The position numbers were made by a program, and so were the translations under genes. A stretch of 50,413 nt of DNA from NCBI GenBank assembly GCA_012798755.1, contig JAAZMP010000001.1, forward strand, positions 1 through 50,413. Reading direction: 5' to 3'. The notes beneath the pieces were generated by a model. The model was not told where the DNA came from. It ran no database searches and saw nothing but the letters and a program-made list of their open reading frames with translations. Below, piece after piece: positions 17,640-38,285 of this stretch (position 1 is the stretch's first letter; every line of letters begins with the position of its first letter). The stretch is from Bacillota bacterium. Lineage in GTDB: Bacteria > Bacillota > Dethiobacteria > DTU022 > UBA8154.

Positions 17640-17930
17640 TCTAAAGCCATGATGGGGACATAGGGAAATGTTCACCCTCTGCAGAGAGCCGGCGGTTTGA
17701 AGCTGCGAGCCGGTGAGGAGACAATTCCCCGGTCACCCCGGAGTTTTTCCCTGAAATCTGTTTTTGTAAAAAACAAAAACAGAAACTAAGGGCAGACGGC
17801 AGCACCGTTATCAGTAAAAGTTTTGCGCTTGAAGTGGCTCTTTTAATGTTTTTTAAACAGGGCAACAAGGGTGGTACCGCGGAGCAAACTCCTTCGCCCC
17901 TTGACAGAGGGAGGAGGAGTTTTTTTATTA
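17640..17930 (+). promoter_or_regulatory. T-box riboswitch leader, probably valine-specific
   Basis: T-box leaders read uncharged tRNA and switch a terminator off. The conserved T-box sequence AGGGTGGTACCGCGG lies at about 17868-17882, and a terminator follows with stem ACTCCTT.../...AGGAGGAGT and seven T (about 17888-17927). Stem I spans about 17648-17745: the AGAGAGCCGG and CTGCGAGCCGG segments form its distal loop region. The specifier position, judged by the following ACCCCGGAG, is GTC at 17732-17734, a valine codon. That fits the downstream branched-chain amino acid genes. The specifier was aligned by eye to known T-boxes, so isoleucine or leucine specificity is not strictly excluded. 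Confidence 0.92.
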
Positions 17931-17975
17931 TGAAAACCGGTGCGGTCACCTTATTTTTTCAAAGGAGGTGAGAGC

Positions 17976-29362: not shown

Positions 29363-29992
29363 GTGGAGGATTCGGTATTGGAATTTGCGAAAAAATCCGC
29401 TGAGATCGACACTCTGGAACAATGGCGCGCTTTTTGCTTACAGTGTCGTCGCTGCCCTCTGCGCCAAAGCGCCAAAAACGTAGTCTTTGGCGAGGGCAGC
29501 CCCCGGGCAGATATAATGTTTATCGGTGAAGGCCCGGGCGCCGAAGAAGATCGTCTGGGACATCCTTTTGTGGGTGCGGCGGGCCGGCTTCTGGATCGTA
29601 TTCTTGCCGCCGCCGGATGGTCCAGGGAAGAAATATATATTGCCAATATTGTCAAATGCCGCCCGCCCGGTAATCGTCAGCCCCAGCGCGATGAGATCGA
29701 GGCTTGCTATCCCCTGTTGCAAAAACAGATAGAACTGATCGACCCCCCTATTATCATCTGCCTGGGGGCCGTGGCCAGCAAAGTTTTGCTCAAACCCGAC
29801 TTTCGCATAACCAAAGAGCGGGGAAACTGGCATGAAATAGGAGGCCGCATGGCTATGCCTACATTTCATCCCGCGGCGCTGTTGCGCGACCCTAAGAAAA
29901 AAAGGCCCGTTTGGGAAGATATCCAGCAGGTTATGGCTGCACATAAGAAAATTGTCGCTTCCCGGCAGGCAGGGCACCAAGAAAAAAACTGA
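29363..29992 (+). CDS. Uracil-DNA glycosylase, family 4 (iron-sulfur)
   Basis: The enzyme excises uracil from DNA. Family 4 marks are all visible: cysteines CLQCRRC near the N-terminus with later cysteines in VKCRPPGNRQP and EIEACYPLL (four [4Fe-4S] ligands), GEGPGAEEDRLGHPFVGAAGRLLD (active-site motif GEGPG) and TFHPAALLRDP (second active-site motif, HPAA). The 209-residue length is normal. The start is GTG 29363 after CGGAGGAG. The gene belongs to a class common in thermophiles and anaerobic Firmicutes. Confidence 0.93.
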   Translation: MEDSVLEFAKKSAEIDTLEQWRAFCLQCRRCPLRQSAKNVVFGEGSPRADIMFIGEGPGAEEDRLGHPFVGAAGRLLDRILAAAGWSREEIYIANIVKCRPPGNRQPQRDEIEACYPLLQKQIELIDPPIIICLGAVASKVLLKPDFRITKERGNWHEIGGRMAMPTFHPAALLRDPKKKRPVWEDIQQVMAAHKKIVASRQAGHQEKN

Positions 29993-30026
29993 TCCAAAAA
30001 TTTAGTTAGTGAGGGGATCTCAGCTG

Positions 30027-30713
30027 ATGAAGAAAAAAATCCTTCTTGTAGAGGATGAAAAAACTCTGGCCAAAGCCTTAAAATTTAATTTGGAAAAAGA
30101 AGGATTTAGCGTAGTGACAACTTTTGACGGGGAAGAAGCCCTAAGAGCAATGCCTGCGGAAAAACCGGATCTCGTCATCCTCGATCTTATGCTTCCTAAA
30201 ATCAACGGTTTTGAGGTATGCCGCAGCATCCGCAGGAACTCCGACGTCCCCATTATTATGCTTACTGCCCGCGATGAAGATATTGACAAGATTTTGGGGC
30301 TGGAGCTGGGGGCCGACGATTATATGACCAAACCTTTTAACGTCCGGGAGCTTTTGGCCCGCATCCGGGCTATTTTGCGCCGGACGGTGTCGCAGGCAAA
30401 GGTTGGGGCACAATTTATAAAAGCGGGCGATTTGCAAATAGATTCCCTTAAACGCAAAGTAACGATCAAGGGTCGCAGGATAGCCCTTACCGCCAGGGAA
30501 TATGCCCTGCTCGTCTTTTTGGCTTCCAACCCCGGCAAAGTTTATTCACGCGAACAGCTGTTAAAAGAAATCTGGGGCGAAAATTACAAAGGGGATGTTC
30601 GCACCGTTGATGTGCATATAAGGCATTTGCGGGAAAAAGTAGAAGAATTCCCGGCAGATCCCGGCTTGATCCTTACCGTATGGGGTATCGGCTATAAATT
30701 TAGAGAGGTTTGA
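30027..30713 (+). CDS. OmpR/PhoB-family response regulator
   Basis: A 228-residue response regulator with a receiver domain (acidic pocket ED at 9-10, phosphoacceptor Asp 53 in VILDLMLP, Thr in MLTARDED, Lys in TKPF) and a C-terminal winged helix (RIALTAREYALLVFLASNPGKVYSREQLLKEIWGE..DVRTVDVHIRHLREK). WalR/PhoP/MtrA-like sequence and partner order suggest a cell-envelope regulator, but DNA targets are unknown. ATG 30027 follows AGGGG at about ten bases; the earlier GTG 30009 overlaps that region. Nine bases separate it from the kinase gene. Confidence 0.93.
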   Translation: MKKKILLVEDEKTLAKALKFNLEKEGFSVVTTFDGEEALRAMPAEKPDLVILDLMLPKINGFEVCRSIRRNSDVPIIMLTARDEDIDKILGLELGADDYMTKPFNVRELLARIRAILRRTVSQAKVGAQFIKAGDLQIDSLKRKVTIKGRRIALTAREYALLVFLASNPGKVYSREQLLKEIWGENYKGDVRTVDVHIRHLREKVEEFPADPGLILTVWGIGYKFREV

Positions 30714-30722
30714 AGGTTTATA

Positions 30723-32216
30723 ATGTTTAACAGCATCCGCCTGCGCATGACAATAACATATTTACTGCTTATTGCCGCAGTTATGCTGGCTACGGGAATT
30801 ATTCTATTAAATATGCTTGAAAAATACTATCTTTCTTCTGCAGAAGAAAATCTGGAACAGACCGGCAAACTAACGGCCGAATTTATTGCTTCCTACCTTC
30901 GGGATGGCGCTGATGCCGTTCTTTTAAGCAATGTCGCCGAAAATTTTAGCCGGCAGATCGATGCCCGGGTCATCATTGTAAATCCTCAGAAGACAGTAGT
31001 GGGCGATTCGCTGCGCGTAGGGGGACTTTTGGGCGCGATGATGGAACGGGAAGAAGTTGAAACAGCACTGGAAGGAAAAATCGGGCGCAGCATACAATAC
31101 AGCAAACTTTCGGACCAGTGGGTCCTGCAGGTCTCGGTGCCCGTACAAGAAGGTGCAAGTTCGCTTGGCGCGGTTTTCCTTTCTTCCTCCCTCAAACCCG
31201 TTTATCAAACCCTGGCGGCAGTACGCCGCTTTCTTGTTGTTTCTACCCTGGTTTCCATGATTTTCGCCGGTTTGCTCGTGGTTCTCTTTGCCCATCACCT
31301 GACGGAACCCATCAAAGTACTGACTGCTGCCGCTCAGCAGATTGCCGAGGGCAACCTGGACCAACGGATACCGGTTAGTTTTGGCGATGAGATCGGCCGC
31401 TTAGCCCAACAGTTCAATATCATGGCTGCCAAGCTCAAGGAAATGAACCAGCGCCTGACCCGCTTTGTGGGCGATGTTTCCCATGAGTTAAGGACACCCC
31501 TGTCCTCAATCCACATCTGCCTGCAGTCAATGCAAAACTACGAACTAAGCAAGGAAGAACAAGAAGAATTTCTGGAGGATATAAACCATGAAACCCAGCG
31601 CTTGATCTATCTGGTGGAAGATCTTCTGGAGCTTACCAGGAAACAGGAGGTTGCTGATAAACGGGAAATTTTACCCTTAAAGGCCCTTCTGGAAGATATC
31701 TTGGATCTGGTTTGCCCCCGCGTAAAGCGTAAAGGGCTAAAGCTTTTTTCGGAGATACCCGCAGACCTTCCCTATCTATATGTTTCCCCCGATGATCTAA
31801 AGAGAGTTTTCTTTAACCTTTTGGATAATGCTATTAAATATACACCTGATGGCGGTTGGTTGAAGCTCAGTGTTGAAAACAGACCGGAACAAGTGATTAT
31901 CACGGTACAGGACACGGGTTGCGGCATACCGGCAGATGCTTTGCCATACCTTTTTGATCGCTTTTTCCGAGTGGATAAAGCCCGCTCACGCTACCTTGGT
32001 GGGACAGGACTGGGGCTTAGTATCTGCAAGGAAATAGTGGAGCATTACGGCGGATCAATAGGTGTGCTGGAAACCAAGGAAGGCCTGGGCAGTACTTTCT
32101 TCTTTACTCTTCCCGTAGATCCCGCCATACAACACTGCAAAGATGAAACGGAAAGACCCCAGGAGGAAAATGCCAAAGAAATAAGTCCCGTTTATCTGCC
32201 AATAGAGAAGGGGTAA
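30723..32216 (+). CDS. Sensor histidine kinase (HAMP-HisKA-HATPase)
   Basis: A 497-residue membrane kinase. TM1 is at about 9-31 (MTITYLLLIAAVMLATGIILL) and TM2 at about 166-188, leaving an extracytoplasmic sensor of about 130 residues. A HAMP domain (LTEPIKVLTAAAQQIAEGNLDQRIPV) is followed directly by HisKA with phosphoacceptor His 254 in FVGDVSHELRTPLSSI, then N-box NLLDNAIKYTPDGG, G1 DTGCGIP and G2 GGTGLGLSI. There is no PAS domain between HAMP and HisKA, unlike typical WalK. It pairs with the upstream regulator, and the lipoprotein gene begins two bases after its stop, so all three are probably one transcript. Confidence 0.93.
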   Translation: MFNSIRLRMTITYLLLIAAVMLATGIILLNMLEKYYLSSAEENLEQTGKLTAEFIASYLRDGADAVLLSNVAENFSRQIDARVIIVNPQKTVVGDSLRVGGLLGAMMEREEVETALEGKIGRSIQYSKLSDQWVLQVSVPVQEGASSLGAVFLSSSLKPVYQTLAAVRRFLVVSTLVSMIFAGLLVVLFAHHLTEPIKVLTAAAQQIAEGNLDQRIPVSFGDEIGRLAQQFNIMAAKLKEMNQRLTRFVGDVSHELRTPLSSIHICLQSMQNYELSKEEQEEFLEDINHETQRLIYLVEDLLELTRKQEVADKREILPLKALLEDILDLVCPRVKRKGLKLFSEIPADLPYLYVSPDDLKRVFFNLLDNAIKYTPDGGWLKLSVENRPEQVIITVQDTGCGIPADALPYLFDRFFRVDKARSRYLGGTGLGLSICKEIVEHYGGSIGVLETKEGLGSTFFFTLPVDPAIQHCKDETERPQEENAKEISPVYLPIEKG

Positions 32217-32217
32217 T

Positions 32218-34374
32218 ATGGCTTTTAACAAACTGTGCAGGGCAATAAAAAAGATCAATAAGCGGATTTTTTATAGAAAATCCGATCCTGATCAGATGGT
32301 GAGAAAATGTGCGTTTAGACCCAGCATACCTATTTTTTTGCTGCTTCTGCTCTTTTTATCCAGCTCCTGTTCACCGGCGTCTCCTGTTTCCCCGGTGGAT
32401 CCGGTGGAGCCTGTAGTTACCGGCCTGGAAAATGCAGGGGAAGATATGTTTGTCCGAGGGCGCTTTTCCGTGGTGGATCCGGAGATGAATATCTATGCTT
32501 TAGATATCTCCAGCTCCGGTGATGATATTCTTTTCAGCTCCGATGCCCGTTCAATCCATATGTTAGACGATCAGGGCCGGCTCAAATGGGAGGTTGTTTT
32601 TGAAGGCCTTCCTGTTGCCGCAGAACTTTCCGACAGTGGTTATTATATTGCTGTGGGAACCGACTGCGGTGAAGTGTATTTCTTGCATAGAGACAGCCAG
32701 GTTATCTGGAAAAAAAATTTCCCGGGCGCTATCTGTCACATAGCCCTCTCCCCATATAGCAATTTTTTGGTTATCTCCGTTAAAGACGAAAACGACGTGT
32801 ACAAGCTCTATGCTCTGGATCAGTGGGGAACCCCGCTCTGGGAGAGAGAAACAGGGCCGCTTCTGCAGCTGGATTATGTTTCGGAGAGAAACATAGTATA
32901 CTGTTCTCTGGAAAAAGAAGGTAAAAATGTCTTTGTTGTCTTTAAAAACGGAGAAGTTTTCTGGGAAAAGGAGGCTGCTGTATCCGCAGTTTCCAAGGAT
33001 GGGGAGTTTGCTGCTATTTATAACGACAATGTTTTATCCCTTTACAACCTAAAAACAGAAAAAGGAACTTCCCCCGGCCTGTTTTGGCGCCATCCTTTAA
33101 GTTCTAAAATTACTTCTTTGGAGCTGACAGAGGCGGGGGAACATGTGTTGGCTTACAGCGCTTTTCCCGGTGCCGGCAACAACCTTTTTGTATTTTGCCG
33201 AAAGGGTTCCCTGTCCTGGGAAAAGAAAATACCGAGCGGCTCTCTTTTACAGGCCTCCCGGTTTGGAGACAGGATCGTAGCTTCTTCTTGGCAGGAGTAC
33301 AGCGAGGATTTCAGCAAGGTCCTCGTTCTTAACAAAAACGGAGATGTCCTGCAGGAAACAGGGATGGCCAGCCGCATTGAAAAAATCTCACTTTCCCGGG
33401 ATGGAAACATTTTGGCGTTGGCGGGAAATGAAGGAAATATCTTTATACTGGATATGCCTGTCTACGGCCTTTTGCAGGAAACAGAGCTATCCGGGGGCAG
33501 TGCACCCGAACATGCTGAGGAATTGTACCGCCCCGTGGTTTTTAGCTGTGCTGACGAGGAACAGTATATAACGCTTTATTTTTATGATGAATATGCTTTG
33601 CGATTGGTACCTGTAAGCCGCTGTATTAAAAGTACCCAGGCACCCCTGCAGGCTGCCGTCAGCGAACTCATAAAGGGCCCCTGCCGTCAAAGCGGCCTTT
33701 CCCGTACGATTCCCAAGGATACTCATATCAAAGTAACCCTGCAGGATGGTATTGCTGTGCTCGATCTTCCCGAAGATCTTAGTCGGTTGGGCGATTCCAA
33801 GCAGAACAGGGGCATAATTGATTCATTGATCCTTACCGCCTCCCAATTTCCCTCCGTGGAAGGGGTGCGTTTTCTAATAGAAGGAAGCAGTGCCCGAATC
33901 TTTGGAATGGAAGGTGTTATTATCAACGATGTTTTTCCCTCCCGTTCACCGGTTAAAAACAAAACGATGCTCTATATTCCTTATCGTTCCGGTAAGCGCT
34001 TCTTTTTGCTCCCCCGTGAGGCCATCCAATTGGGAAGCAGGTTTAATACGGCCCAGGATCTGCTCAAAATTCTATTGGAGGAAAGCAGACGTTTTCTACC
34101 GGTGGCGCCGGAGTTGAAAGATATCAGGATCACCAATAAGGAAATTATCTTGGACTGGGGGCAATCTTTGGCCAAGCTGTTTCCACCGGAGGGCAGCCCC
34201 GAGGAAAAAGCACTGGCATCGCTTTTCTTGGATTCTGTTTTGTTAACCCTGGGCAGCAATTTCCAGCAGGATCGCGTTGTTTTGTTCATAGAAGGTGAGC
34301 CCTGGGAACCGCCGGAAGGCTATCCTTCGACGGTTTTGGAATACAGCGAGCCTTTTTATTTGAATCCTGAGTAA
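32218..34374 (+). CDS. LpqB-like lipoprotein: beta-propeller followed by two GerM-like domains
   Basis: A 718-residue exported protein. A hydrophobic segment ends in FLSSSC with Cys 51 as the likely lipidation site. The N-terminal 26 residues before MVRK are unusually long; an internal ATG at codon 27 would give a normal signal peptide but has no ribosome binding site, whereas ATG 32218 follows GAAGGGG. Residues about 75-425 are WD40/PQQ-like repeats (YALDISSSGDDILFSSDARSIHMLDDQGRLKWEV and six or so similar blades). Residues about 440-580 match a GerMN domain (ITLYFYDEYALRLVPVSR, ELIKGPC, IPKDTHIKVTLQDGIAVLDL), with a second, weaker copy to the end. The same domains in reverse order make up actinobacterial LpqB, encoded after MtrA-MtrB. 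Role as a kinase modulator is inference. Confidence 0.8.
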   Translation: MAFNKLCRAIKKINKRIFYRKSDPDQMVRKCAFRPSIPIFLLLLLFLSSSCSPASPVSPVDPVEPVVTGLENAGEDMFVRGRFSVVDPEMNIYALDISSSGDDILFSSDARSIHMLDDQGRLKWEVVFEGLPVAAELSDSGYYIAVGTDCGEVYFLHRDSQVIWKKNFPGAICHIALSPYSNFLVISVKDENDVYKLYALDQWGTPLWERETGPLLQLDYVSERNIVYCSLEKEGKNVFVVFKNGEVFWEKEAAVSAVSKDGEFAAIYNDNVLSLYNLKTEKGTSPGLFWRHPLSSKITSLELTEAGEHVLAYSAFPGAGNNLFVFCRKGSLSWEKKIPSGSLLQASRFGDRIVASSWQEYSEDFSKVLVLNKNGDVLQETGMASRIEKISLSRDGNILALAGNEGNIFILDMPVYGLLQETELSGGSAPEHAEELYRPVVFSCADEEQYITLYFYDEYALRLVPVSRCIKSTQAPLQAAVSELIKGPCRQSGLSRTIPKDTHIKVTLQDGIAVLDLPEDLSRLGDSKQNRGIIDSLILTASQFPSVEGVRFLIEGSSARIFGMEGVIINDVFPSRSPVKNKTMLYIPYRSGKRFFLLPREAIQLGSRFNTAQDLLKILLEESRRFLPVAPELKDIRITNKEIILDWGQSLAKLFPPEGSPEEKALASLFLDSVLLTLGSNFQQDRVVLFIEGEPWEPPEGYPSTVLEYSEPFYLNPE

Positions 34375-34592: not shown

Positions 34593-36323
34593 TTGCTTGT
34601 TTTCAAAGAAAAAATTGGTTTGTTGCTATCTTCGCTTACGGGCCTAGATCCGGCGAAGGCTGCTTCATCGTTGGAGATACCTCCGGAACCCGGGTTGGGG
34701 GAATATGCTTTTCCTTGTTTTATATTGGCTCGTTCTTTAAAAAAGTCGCCTCAGGCCATTGCCTCCGAACTGGCCGGCCGCATAGAACCAACAGAATACC
34801 TAAAAAAAGTGGAAAGCGTGGGACCGTACCTCAACTTTTATGTACACCGGCCGCACCTGTTTTTCAGGCTTTCAATGGAAATTGCGAAACAAGATTTTGC
34901 ATACGGCCGCAGCGAGGAGGGGCAGGGTCAAACCATCGTCATTGATTACTCCGCTCCAAATATTGCCAAACCTTTTGGCATAGGTCACCTGCGTTCTACG
35001 GTGATCGGAAACTCTCTTTACCGTCTTTATGAAAATTTGGGCTACCGCGTAATAGGGATAAATCACCTGGGGGATTGGGGCACGCAGTTCGGCAAATTAA
35101 TCGTGGCTTACCGTAAATGGGGCGACAGCTCCCGCCTGGAAAAAGATCCCGTGCGCTATCTCTATGAACTTTACGTACTTTTTCATAAGGAGGCGGAAGA
35201 AAACCCCGATTTGGAAGAAGAAGCCCGCCTCTGGTTTCGGAACCTGGAAATGGATGACGAAGAAGCTGTCCAGATCTGGAAGAATTTCCGGGCTTTAAGC
35301 TTAGAAGATTTTAAACGACTTTACAACTTCTTGGGAATACAATTTGATTCATACAAAGGCGAAAGTTTCTACAATCCTTTACTGGAAAAAACTATTCGGA
35401 TGGCCCAAGAAAAAGGGCTGGCCAAGGAAAGCGAAGGGGCATTGATAGCGGATCTGGAACCCCATGGGCTGCCTCCCTGCCTGCTTCGCAAAAAAGACGG
35501 TGCTGCTCTATATATAACAAGAGATTTGGCGGCCGCCATTTATAGATACGAACAGTATCGCTTTGATAAGATATACTATGTTGTAGGATCTGAGCAGACC
35601 CTTCATTTTCAGCAGCTTTTTAAAATTTTGGAGCTAATGGGTTACCCTTGGGCCCAAAATTGCTTCCACGTTCCCTTTGGGTTGATTCATTTCGAAGATG
35701 GGCGAATGTCAACCCGGGAGGGCCGTGTAATTCTTCTGGAAGATGTCCTTAACAGGGCGACAAAGATCGCACATAGCATTATCAGGGAAAAAAATCCCGA
35801 TTTACAGCGGAAGGAAAAGGCAGCGCACATGGTCGGTTTGGGTGCGGTCATCTTTGGGGATTTAATCAACGATCGAGTTAAAGATATCGAATTCGATTGG
35901 GATAAAGTGCTCGATTTTTCCGGGGAAACAGCCCCCTATATCCAATACGCGCATGCCAGGATCTGCAGTATCTTCAGAAAGGCTGAATCCGAAGGTGAAA
36001 ATATTTTATTCCCTTTGAAAGATGATTTTCCCATCCTTACGGAAATAGGTTTTTTAGATTCTATGGAGGAGGAACAGCTTCTTATAACCCTGTCTCGTTT
36101 TCAGGAACAAATCGGCCGTGCAGCACAAGATTGCCGTCCTTCCTACCTGGCACGCTACCTGGTTGATCTGGCCAGGGATTTCAACAGATTTTATCATAAC
36201 TGCCCCGTGCTTACAGCTGAACAAAAATTAAAGCGGGCCCGGCTTGCGTTGATCAAAGGCGTCCAGGTTGTTTTGCACAATGGGTTAAAGCTTTTGGGAA
36301 TCGAAGCACCGCAGGAGATGTAG
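34593..36323 (+). CDS. argS: Arginyl-tRNA synthetase
   Basis: A class I aminoacyl-tRNA synthetase of 576 residues. The N-terminal additional domain (GLGEYAFPCFILARSLKKSPQAIA) precedes IDYSAPNIAKPFGIGHLRSTVIGNSLYRLYENLGY, ending in GDWGTQFGK. The HIGH signature reads GIGH (residues 129-132), with the first His replaced by Gly. The KMSKS equivalent is GRMSTREG. The C-terminal DALR anticodon-binding domain (ETAPYIQYAHARICSI..) is complete. The start is TTG 34593, 12 bases after AAAGGA. No T-box is present upstream. Followed by serS after 104 bases. Confidence 0.96.
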   Translation: MLVFKEKIGLLLSSLTGLDPAKAASSLEIPPEPGLGEYAFPCFILARSLKKSPQAIASELAGRIEPTEYLKKVESVGPYLNFYVHRPHLFFRLSMEIAKQDFAYGRSEEGQGQTIVIDYSAPNIAKPFGIGHLRSTVIGNSLYRLYENLGYRVIGINHLGDWGTQFGKLIVAYRKWGDSSRLEKDPVRYLYELYVLFHKEAEENPDLEEEARLWFRNLEMDDEEAVQIWKNFRALSLEDFKRLYNFLGIQFDSYKGESFYNPLLEKTIRMAQEKGLAKESEGALIADLEPHGLPPCLLRKKDGAALYITRDLAAAIYRYEQYRFDKIYYVVGSEQTLHFQQLFKILELMGYPWAQNCFHVPFGLIHFEDGRMSTREGRVILLEDVLNRATKIAHSIIREKNPDLQRKEKAAHMVGLGAVIFGDLINDRVKDIEFDWDKVLDFSGETAPYIQYAHARICSIFRKAESEGENILFPLKDDFPILTEIGFLDSMEEEQLLITLSRFQEQIGRAAQDCRPSYLARYLVDLARDFNRFYHNCPVLTAEQKLKRARLALIKGVQVVLHNGLKLLGIEAPQEM

Positions 36324-36427
36324 CCGGCCAATAAGTGTGTTAAAATTGTATATAATTGATCAAAAACCTGGGGTTTCAAGGTTTTATCGGAACCCAAGTT
36401 TAAAACGATAAGTAGGTGTGATACTGA

Positions 36428-37777
36428 ATGTTGGATCCTCGTTTTGTTCGTGAAAATATGGATGCCGTGCGCCATGCTGTCAGCATCAGGGGAGAAAAAG
36501 CAGATTTGGAGACCTTCCTAAAACTGGATTTGAGGCGGCGTGATATACTTCAAGAAGTGGAAGCCTTGAAAAATCAGCGCAATACCGTTTCCAGGGAAGT
36601 GGGGCGTTTAAAAAAAGAAGGACGGATCGATAAGGAACTTTTGAAAAGTTACCAGCTCGAAATTGAAAGTGACGATGCAAAAGATTTGGAAAAAGAACTT
36701 GTAAAAAGGATGCGTTCTGTCAGCGAGCGCATTAAGGCCCTGGATGAACAGCTCAAGAAAACCGAAACAAACCTGGAACAGATACTGCTGCAGATACCCA
36801 ACATGCCCGATCCCGAGGTCCCTATCGGCCTGACGGAAGAAGAAAATGTTGAAGTGCGCCGCTGGGGGGATACCCCGCGATTTGACTTTACTCCCAAAGC
36901 CCACTGGGATATCGGCGAACTTTTGGGCATCCTGGATTTTCCCCGTGCAGGTAAAACCACTGGTTCACGTTTTGTCTTTTACCAAGGAGAAGGCGCCCGT
37001 TTGGAGCGGGCTCTGATCAATTTCATGCTGGATTTACACACTGCCGAACATGGCTACAAGGAGATTTTTCCTCCCTTTTTGGTGAACAGCCAGAGCATGG
37101 TGGGCACCGGCCAGCTACCCAAGTTTGCCGAAGATGCCTTTAATGTGGCCGGGACGGATTACTGGTTGATTCCCACCGCTGAGGTGCCGGTAACCAATCT
37201 GCACCGCGAGGAAATTATACCCGCGGAGCAGCTGCCTTTGTACTACGTTGGCTACAGCGCTTGTTTCCGCGCCGAAGCCGGCGCCCATGGAAGGGACACA
37301 AGGGGGCTTATCAGACAGCACCAGTTTAATAAGGTGGAACTGGTAAAATTTTCACTGCCCCAGGATTCCGGCAAAGAACTGGAAAAACTGGTAAATGATG
37401 CTGAAAAAGTGCTGCAGCTTCTGAAGATACCCTACCGGGTAATGCTCATGTGTACCGGGGATCTGGGTTTTGCTGCTGCCAAAAAATACGATTTGGAAAT
37501 ATGGCTTCCGTCTTACCAAGCCTACCGGGAAGTTTCCTCCTGCAGTAATTTCCGTGACTTCCAGGCCCGGCGTGCCGGGATACGTTATCGTCCCGCTGCC
37601 GGGGCCAAAGCAGAATTTATCCATACTTTAAACGGTTCGGGATTGGCTATTGGCAGAACGCTGGCGGCGATCCTGGAAAATTACCAACAGCAAGACGGCA
37701 GCGTGATCATTCCCGAGGTGCTAAGGCCCTATTTCCCGCCCTCCCATCCCGGTGTTATCCGGCCAACCAGGGAATAA
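36428..37777 (+). CDS. serS: Seryl-tRNA synthetase
   Basis: A class II synthetase with a 449-residue standard layout. The N-terminal long coiled coil (about residues 30-100, rich in KEL/KRM/KAL heptads) binds the long variable arm of tRNA-Ser. Motif 2 is [29 protein letters not shown] and motif 3 is [19 protein letters not shown]. Start ATG 36428 follows GTAGGTG. It lies 226 bases before two tRNA-Ser genes and one tRNA-Arg, so enzyme and substrates are neighbours. The upstream gap contains a TATAAT (near 36349) but no T-box motif. Confidence 0.97.
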
Positions 37778-37961
37778 TGCGGAGCGAATTCATCAGTCGA
37801 AATCCTTTGACCGAAGTGAAGAATCCTAAATTAGGCAAGTGATGCAATTGTTTTCCCAGATTCTTTGTTTTGCCCGGATGGCATAGTAATCTGATAGTCT
37901 TCGGCGTGTTTTTTATATGCTCTACCATTTACTTTGTGGCAGGATCTTGGTTGAGCCATTA

Positions 37962-37991
37962 TTGACTTTATTATCTTAAATATGTTATAAT
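37962..37991 (+). promoter_or_regulatory. Promoter of the tRNA cluster
   Basis: TTGACT (37962-37967) and TATAAT (37986-37991) are separated by 18 bases, 12 bases before the first tRNA. The preceding part of the gap (37778-37961) has no gene or clear terminator. Confidence 0.75.
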
Positions 37992-38003
37992 CAGAAAGCC
38001 CTG

Positions 38004-38090
38004 GGAGGGGTGTCCGAGCGGTTTAAGGAGCCGGTCTTGAAAACCGGTGACTCGAAAGAGCCGTGGGTTCGAATCCCACCCCCTCCGCCA
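38004..38090 (+). tRNA. tRNA-Ser (anticodon TGA)
   Basis: The acceptor stem GGAGGGG pairs with CCCCTCC, the anticodon arm CCGGT-CTTGAAA-ACCGG gives TGA, the variable arm is long, and the T arm is GTGGGTTCGAATCCCAC. CCA is encoded. Confidence 0.97.
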
Positions 38091-38106
38091 AAAGAGTACC
38101 ATACGT

Positions 38107-38201
38107 GGAGAGATGGCCGAGCTGGTCGAAGGCGGTCGCCTGCTAAGCGATTAAACGAGTTAAGCCTCGTTTCGTGGGTTCAAATCCCACTCTCTCCGCC
38201 A
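38107..38201 (+). tRNA. tRNA-Ser (anticodon GCT)
   Basis: The acceptor GGAGAGA/TCTCTCC, the loop CTGCTAA with anticodon GCT, a long variable arm (ACGAG..CTCGT) and a GTGGGTTCAAATCCCAC T arm identify a class II serine tRNA. CCA is encoded. Confidence 0.97.
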
Positions 38202-38207
38202 TAACAT

Positions 38208-38285
38208 GCGCCCGTAGCTCAGCCTGGATAGAGTAACTGACTACGAATCAGGAGGTCGCAGGTTCGAATCCTGCCGGGCGTACCA
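38208..38285 (+). tRNA. tRNA-Arg (anticodon ACG)
   Basis: The acceptor GCGCCCG pairs with CGGGCGT (one G-U at the first pair), the anticodon loop is CTACGAA (ACG), and the T arm is GCAGGTTCGAATCCTGC. CCA is encoded. Deamination of A34 by TadA, encoded at 43410-43865, would be needed for decoding CGN. Confidence 0.97.

Follow-up and report, generated by a model that had tools for sequence, protein, structure and literature searches.

A predicted response regulator-kinase-propeller/GerMN gene set conserved in Dethiobacteria and its probable action as a three-component module

The stretch of DNA analyzed here (the window; 50,413 nucleotides of a Dethiobacteria contig) encodes an OmpR-type response regulator (RR), a histidine kinase (HK), and a 718-aa surface protein predicted to consist of a beta-propeller followed by two GerMN domains. 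The three genes lie at 30027-34374, all on the plus strand, and the order RR-HK-propeller/GerMN gene-argS is conserved across the class Dethiobacteria in the assemblies that we compared. We consider it probable that the three genes constitute a three-component module, in which the tethered extracytoplasmic protein modulates the kinase via its Cache sensor. The original prediction had described the RR, kinase, and lipoprotein genes as a single operon, and the run is indeed operon-like: its coordinates were right, and the intergenic gaps are 9 nt (RR-HK) and 1 nt (HK-lipoprotein gene). The features of the locus are as follows.

29363-29992, plus strand: family-4 uracil-DNA glycosylase, a conserved upstream boundary outside the module (TIGR00758, 205 bits; likewise upstream in relatives)
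30027-30713, plus strand: response regulator of OmpR/PhoB type (receiver at aa 5-114, Pfam 1.2e-31; Trans_reg_C at aa 149-225, Pfam 1.2e-29)
30723-32216, plus strand: sensor histidine kinase of 497 aa without PAS (Pfam HAMP 188-239, HisKA 245-309, HATPase_c 356-466)
30822-31187, plus strand: predicted extracytoplasmic single-Cache sensor of the kinase, aa 34-155 (sCache_like PF16736, 29.5 bits, cut-off 27; Cache_WalK, 19.1 bits)
32218-34374, plus strand: predicted propeller-GerMN-GerMN surface lipoprotein of 718 aa (Pfam Germane and AlphaFold2 model)
32326-32370, plus strand: hydrophobic signal helix and lipobox-like LSSS-C51 (from the sequence; alternative start M27 at 32296)
32452-33459, plus strand: predicted eight-bladed PQQ/WD40-like beta-propeller, aa 79-414 (AlphaFold2, 32 strands; Foldseek)
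33559-33930, plus strand: GerMN domain 1, aa 448-571 (PF10646, 4e-23; PDB GerM 6gzb, 1.2e-25)
33967-34371, plus strand: predicted GerMN domain 2, diverged, aa 584-718 (domain-1 topology in AlphaFold2; hhalign to domain 1)
34593-36323, plus strand: argS, a conserved downstream boundary outside the module (adjoins the third gene in relatives)

The RR was taken to start at the ATG at 30027, with a GTG at 30009 as a possible alternative. A promoter scan found promoter-like sites at a density not above that of shuffled sequences, and terminator-like sites occurred at about twice the shuffled mean, mostly within genes. Elsewhere in the window, argS is followed by serS, two tRNA-Ser genes, and one tRNA-Arg gene (34593-38285), and a T-box leader (17640-17904; 99 bits) precedes the gene at 17968, among branched-chain amino-acid genes.

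Fold and anchoring of the third protein

The original prediction had set a GerMN match in the C-terminal third of the protein as its own test, and that match was found: Pfam Germane (PF10646) scored 82.7 bits against a gathering cut-off of 23, with the best stretch at residues 452-558. In an AlphaFold2 model built on 39 homologues (pLDDT, 84.7; pTM, 0.54), 32 strands form eight four-stranded blades at about residues 79-414, and two domains of identical topology (beta-beta-alpha-beta-beta-alpha-alpha-beta) follow C-terminal to the propeller. The anticipated order of a propeller and then GerM-like domains thus agrees with the predicted fold. The two C-terminal domains aligned with each other in hhalign (96% probability; E, 2e-9), which indicates that the second is a diverged GerMN domain lying beyond Pfam's best stretch.

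Pfam propeller matches in the window protein were weak, and PQQ_2 did not pass its cut-off; in the third proteins of relatives, PQQ_2 and DUF5711 did, with PQQ_2 (BamB family) reaching 44.8 to 56.5 bits in loci L171 and L067. Searched against the PDB, the family profile matched the solved GerM structure, designed and natural propellers, and BamB. Foldseek returned a probability of 1.00 for WD40 propellers and BamB, the whole-model matches being mostly WD40 propellers; such matches do not discriminate between propeller families and are uninformative on GerMN, for which the PDB sequence search was better.

The N terminus of the window protein has a hydrophobic helix and a cysteine, C51, after SSS. 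The lipobox is imperfect, and the start is uncertain between M1 and M27, the latter yielding a more usual signal peptide. A lipobox-type cysteine, clearer than in the window protein, is present in families f1, f6, f7, and f8, and families f3 and f5 have an uncleaved N-terminal transmembrane anchor in its place. Membrane tethering of the third protein is thus predicted to be retained while its chemistry changes from lipobox to transmembrane anchor. The same genome encodes further GerMN genes elsewhere, including a 358-aa two-GerMN protein on another contig.

Conservation, losses, and related gene sets

Within the order, the kinase gene lies immediately upstream of the third gene in 30 of 30 relatives, in keeping with the expectation that the gene would be conserved beside kinase genes, and argS immediately downstream in 29 (the contig of the 30th ends there). 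Chance adjacency of the third gene to the kinase pair was rejected. The full order RR-HK-third gene-argS was seen in named GTDB genomes and in families f6, f7, and f8, and HK-third gene-argS also in families f2, f3, f6, f7, and f8. The propeller-GerMN protein is present in about 65 of the 76 genomes of the class (an uncorrected count of 75 includes GerMN-only matches). Across 398 genomes of the phylum, all of the matches listed from outside the class were limited to the GerMN part, and the propeller-GerMN fusion therefore looks like a Dethiobacteria trait.

The slot between kinase and argS varies. One genome (G026) has a propeller-only protein there, GerMN being absent, and in four others (G007, G015, G024, and G030) the third gene is missing, with the pair intact and the kinase sensor domain retained. 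The kinase also adjoins argS, with no third gene, in G021 and G022, which belong to the genus of G007 and G015. Where the slot is empty, the leftover gap is 80 to 197 nt, compared with about 2,200 to 3,400 nt where it is filled. In G028 the whole set is missing and the uracil-DNA glycosylase gene (udg) adjoins argS. Three genomes (G064, G078, and G084) yielded neither a kinase nor an argS gene and were left out of the slot readings. Wherever the contig extends upstream, the third gene was never seen apart from the kinase. The third gene was lost several times with the RR-HK pair kept; these losses of the third gene alone, and its never being seen without the kinase, argue that the third gene depends on the pair and not the reverse. 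Retention of the sensor in G007, G015, G024, and G030 likewise implies that the pair can do without the third protein.

In one draft genome (G072; locus L201, 2386-3501), the extracytoplasmic domain, and nothing else, is missing in frame from the kinase, which retains both transmembrane helices; that locus also has no third gene. This joint absence, a single event, points to the sensor domain of the kinase.

Outside the class, an RR-HK pair followed by a GerMN lipoprotein gene was found in Mahella (L098 and L090) and in families f18 (L234 and L237), f109 (L291), and f50 (L293), with L291 and L293 found by kinase similarity alone. We built a tree of concatenated RR and HK sequences that included 16 kinase neighbours picked by similarity alone. 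The Dethiobacteria pairs formed one clade and, together with all GerMN-followed pairs except that of family f26, a larger clade of 25 rows (support, 100/99), separate from WalRK and MtrAB. Similarity-picked neighbours without GerMN fell outside it. This fully supported clade suggests that the kinase-GerMN association is old within Bacillota and that the propeller fusion is specific to Dethiobacteria. The original prediction had left the choice between a convergent and an anciently shared module: ancient sharing holds for the pair and its GerMN lipoprotein in Bacillota, and the propeller partner is lineage specific, so that the likeness to LpqB would be parallel in its parts.

The kinase link is confined to particular clades, as GerMN loci at large mostly lack a kinase: of 40 loci taken from outside the class, the one that was kinase linked came from an already known genus, and the other 39, single-GerMN loci that served as a control, had no kinase upstream. 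Family f26, just outside the 25-row clade, encodes an RR, a kinase (Cache-PAS), a two-GerMN lipoprotein, a GerMN/FG-GAP propeller protein, and an NHL propeller protein; its nearest tree neighbours (L300 and L304) have the pair followed by FG-GAP-bearing proteins.

Several side observations concern these relatives. In the f26 loci (L229, L232, and L233), a Peptidase_MA-type protein follows the NHL propeller protein in the operon, whose middle gene is not resolved in L232. The f26 operon has a second, differently built GerMN-plus-propeller set after a two-component pair, and its GerMN/FG-GAP protein has GerMN before the propeller, the order of LpqB. The Mahella-related loci (L098, 6833-9271; L090, 2192-4619) have two GerMN lipoproteins after the pair; one of them weakly matches an NTF2-like domain at its C terminus, and the other carries three or more GerMN domains. 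A small lipoprotein follows related RR-HK pairs in L297 (859-1401) and L299 (2974-3471); that of L297 matches GerD weakly, at 23.2 bits, which is below the cut-off. Sporulation or germination lipoproteins may recur beside this class of kinase.

Proposed action of the third protein

In the proposed mechanism, the third protein would be tethered to the membrane with its propeller and GerMN domains outside, where it would bind a ligand or partner in the envelope and, by way of the small Cache sensor domain, modulate the kinase. We infer that the protein touches the sensor, that the signal comes from the envelope, and that there is an effect, whose sign could be activation or inhibition. The envelope-stress role and the direct tuning of the kinase put forward in the original prediction are likewise inferred. 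Action on the kinase is likely by parallel with two known cases: LpqB is reported to bind the extracellular domain of MtrB and to alter MtrA phosphorylation (PMC3353115), and YycH and YycI stimulate WalK (PMC7355866). Distance correlations (partial r given argS, from a set in which a few rows duplicate one genome) were 0.40 between propeller and sensor and 0.34 between GerMN and sensor; with the kinase core, the values were 0.12 for GerMN and 0.30 for the sensor. The propeller-sensor value is barely above the within-kinase value, the test being significant and not specific; these correlations hint at, and are weakly consistent with, the third protein acting on the sensor.

Genes of one operon can be regulated together even if their products never meet. 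The third gene could be the output of the pair: an envelope or sporulation protein (a GerM-like scaffold with a BamB-like propeller) that is cotranscribed with its regulator, the pair setting its amount without any contact with the kinase. The lipoprotein GerM of Bacillus subtilis is required for assembly of the SpoIIIA-SpoIIQ complex (PMC7924749), the GerMN domains match GerM in the PDB, and the persistence of the RR-HK pair without the third gene would suit such a role. We nevertheless regard this explanation as unlikely. The third gene was not seen kept without the kinase, G072 has neither sensor domain nor third gene, other GerMN genes are located elsewhere in the genome, and the varied domain compositions in the same slot beside related kinases fit sensor input better.

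We put forward a broader reading tentatively: lipoproteins with GerMN and propeller domains may form an ancient, general class of extracytoplasmic third components that can replace one another and that serve Cache-type kinases of the OmpR family in Gram-positive bacteria. Within one Bacillota kinase clade, GerMN would be the constant element, and the propellers would be independent recruits: PQQ/WD40-like in Dethiobacteria, FG-GAP and NHL in f26, and either Gmad1 or PD40 in Actinomycetota. On this view, LpqB would exemplify a more general rule. The way in which LpqB acts together with MtrB has been a standing question ever since LpqB was put forward as a third component in 2006. Another lineage with reversed parts, GerMN-only relatives, and natural losses make the lipoprotein-sensor question both comparative and experimental, and the natural variants (loss of the gene alone, or of gene and sensor together) frame the questions of what part contacts the kinase and what part can be swapped. 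The analysis also offers a likely, predicted function for a protein carried by most of the class Dethiobacteria, a little-studied Gram-positive group.

Comparison with known systems

The closest parallel in plan is MtrAB-LpqB of Actinomycetota, known from tuberculosis bacteria, which likewise has an OmpR-type RR, a kinase, and a lipoprotein with GerMN and propeller, in the same gene order. The mtrA-mtrB-lpqB-like layout that had been pointed out is borne out by four LpqB loci used for comparison, all of them RR-HK-LpqB and all matching LpqB models. Could the third protein then be a diverged LpqB, with mtrAB-lpqB coming from a Gram-positive ancestor or by transfer and its domains permuted? Besides the identical layout, GerMN domain 1 aligned with the GerMN domain of LpqB (hhalign, 91%), and the RR scored 255 bits for MtrA (NCBIfam). 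The RR scored higher, however, for YycF and RpaB, and the window protein had no match to Gmad1 (PF10647) or the NCBIfam LpqB models, although the control LpqBs did. The propellers could not be aligned (1.2%), and the domain order is reversed, as the original prediction had it: in the control LpqBs the propeller is C-terminal and follows GerMN where Pfam detects GerMN (GerMN at 173-293, propeller at 327-587), whereas the window protein is propeller-GerMN-GerMN, with a different propeller family. In the tree, the window pair fell outside the MtrAB clade (100/100). A diverged LpqB is therefore very improbable; membership in LpqB/MtrAB was rejected on models, propeller alignment, domain order, and tree, and the window system resembles MtrAB-LpqB in its predicted plan without being a member. 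A fifth Actinomycetota locus in the comparison set (L228, 1832-3859) encodes an RR, an HK, and a GerMN-PD40 propeller lipoprotein without Gmad1, which is too divergent to reach the LpqB cut-off.

The RR-HK pair is of OmpR type and, by sequence comparison, related to WalRK yet distinct from it. The best NCBIfam matches were YycF for the RR (269 bits, under the cut-off of 340) and WalK for the kinase (322 bits, under the cut-off of 725); the genome's own WalR is likewise just under the YycF cut-off, at 322 bits. Pfam finds only sCache_like-HAMP-HisKA-HATPase_c in the window kinase, so PAS is absent as had been noted. That the module is the lineage's WalRK, with the propeller-GerMN protein substituting for YycHI, is scarcely credible: these top scores, the Cache_WalK sensor over cut-off in kinases of several relatives, and the PAS retained between HAMP and HisKA in kinases of f8 (a sister family in the class) speak for it, but the same genome has a separate walR-walK(PAS)-yycH locus elsewhere (L212), in its own clade of the RR and HK tree, which rules out WalRK identity for the window pair in this genome. 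Given that locus and the PAS of f8, the absence of PAS does not mark a degenerate WalK. WalRK-YycHI of Bacillota is alike in having a related RR, a Cache-type kinase, and an extracytoplasmic accessory gene directly 3'; it differs in that the window accessory protein is unrelated and the window kinase lacks PAS.

The RR-HK-GerMN operons of Mahella, f18, f50, and f109 share the RR/HK clade and a GerMN lipoprotein directly after the kinase but have no propeller detected in that lipoprotein. GerM of B. subtilis (PDB 6gzb) is a lipoprotein with two tandem GerMN domains, to which the window protein adds a propeller and a place in a two-component operon. We found no report in the open-access literature of a propeller-GerMN-GerMN protein, its class-wide conservation, or a kinase-GerMN clade. 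AOT13_14265 of Parageobacillus thermoglucosidasius is another Bacillota propeller lipoprotein whose gene accompanies a two-component pair; in 2026 it was proposed, with LpqB as the analogue, to be part of a three-component system (PMC13068155). It has seven blades, with no GerMN mentioned, and is set apart here by description only. For Bacillota, a two-component pair with a neighbouring propeller lipoprotein has thus already been proposed, and what appears new is the propeller-GerMN-GerMN composition, its conservation across the class, and the kinase-GerMN clade.
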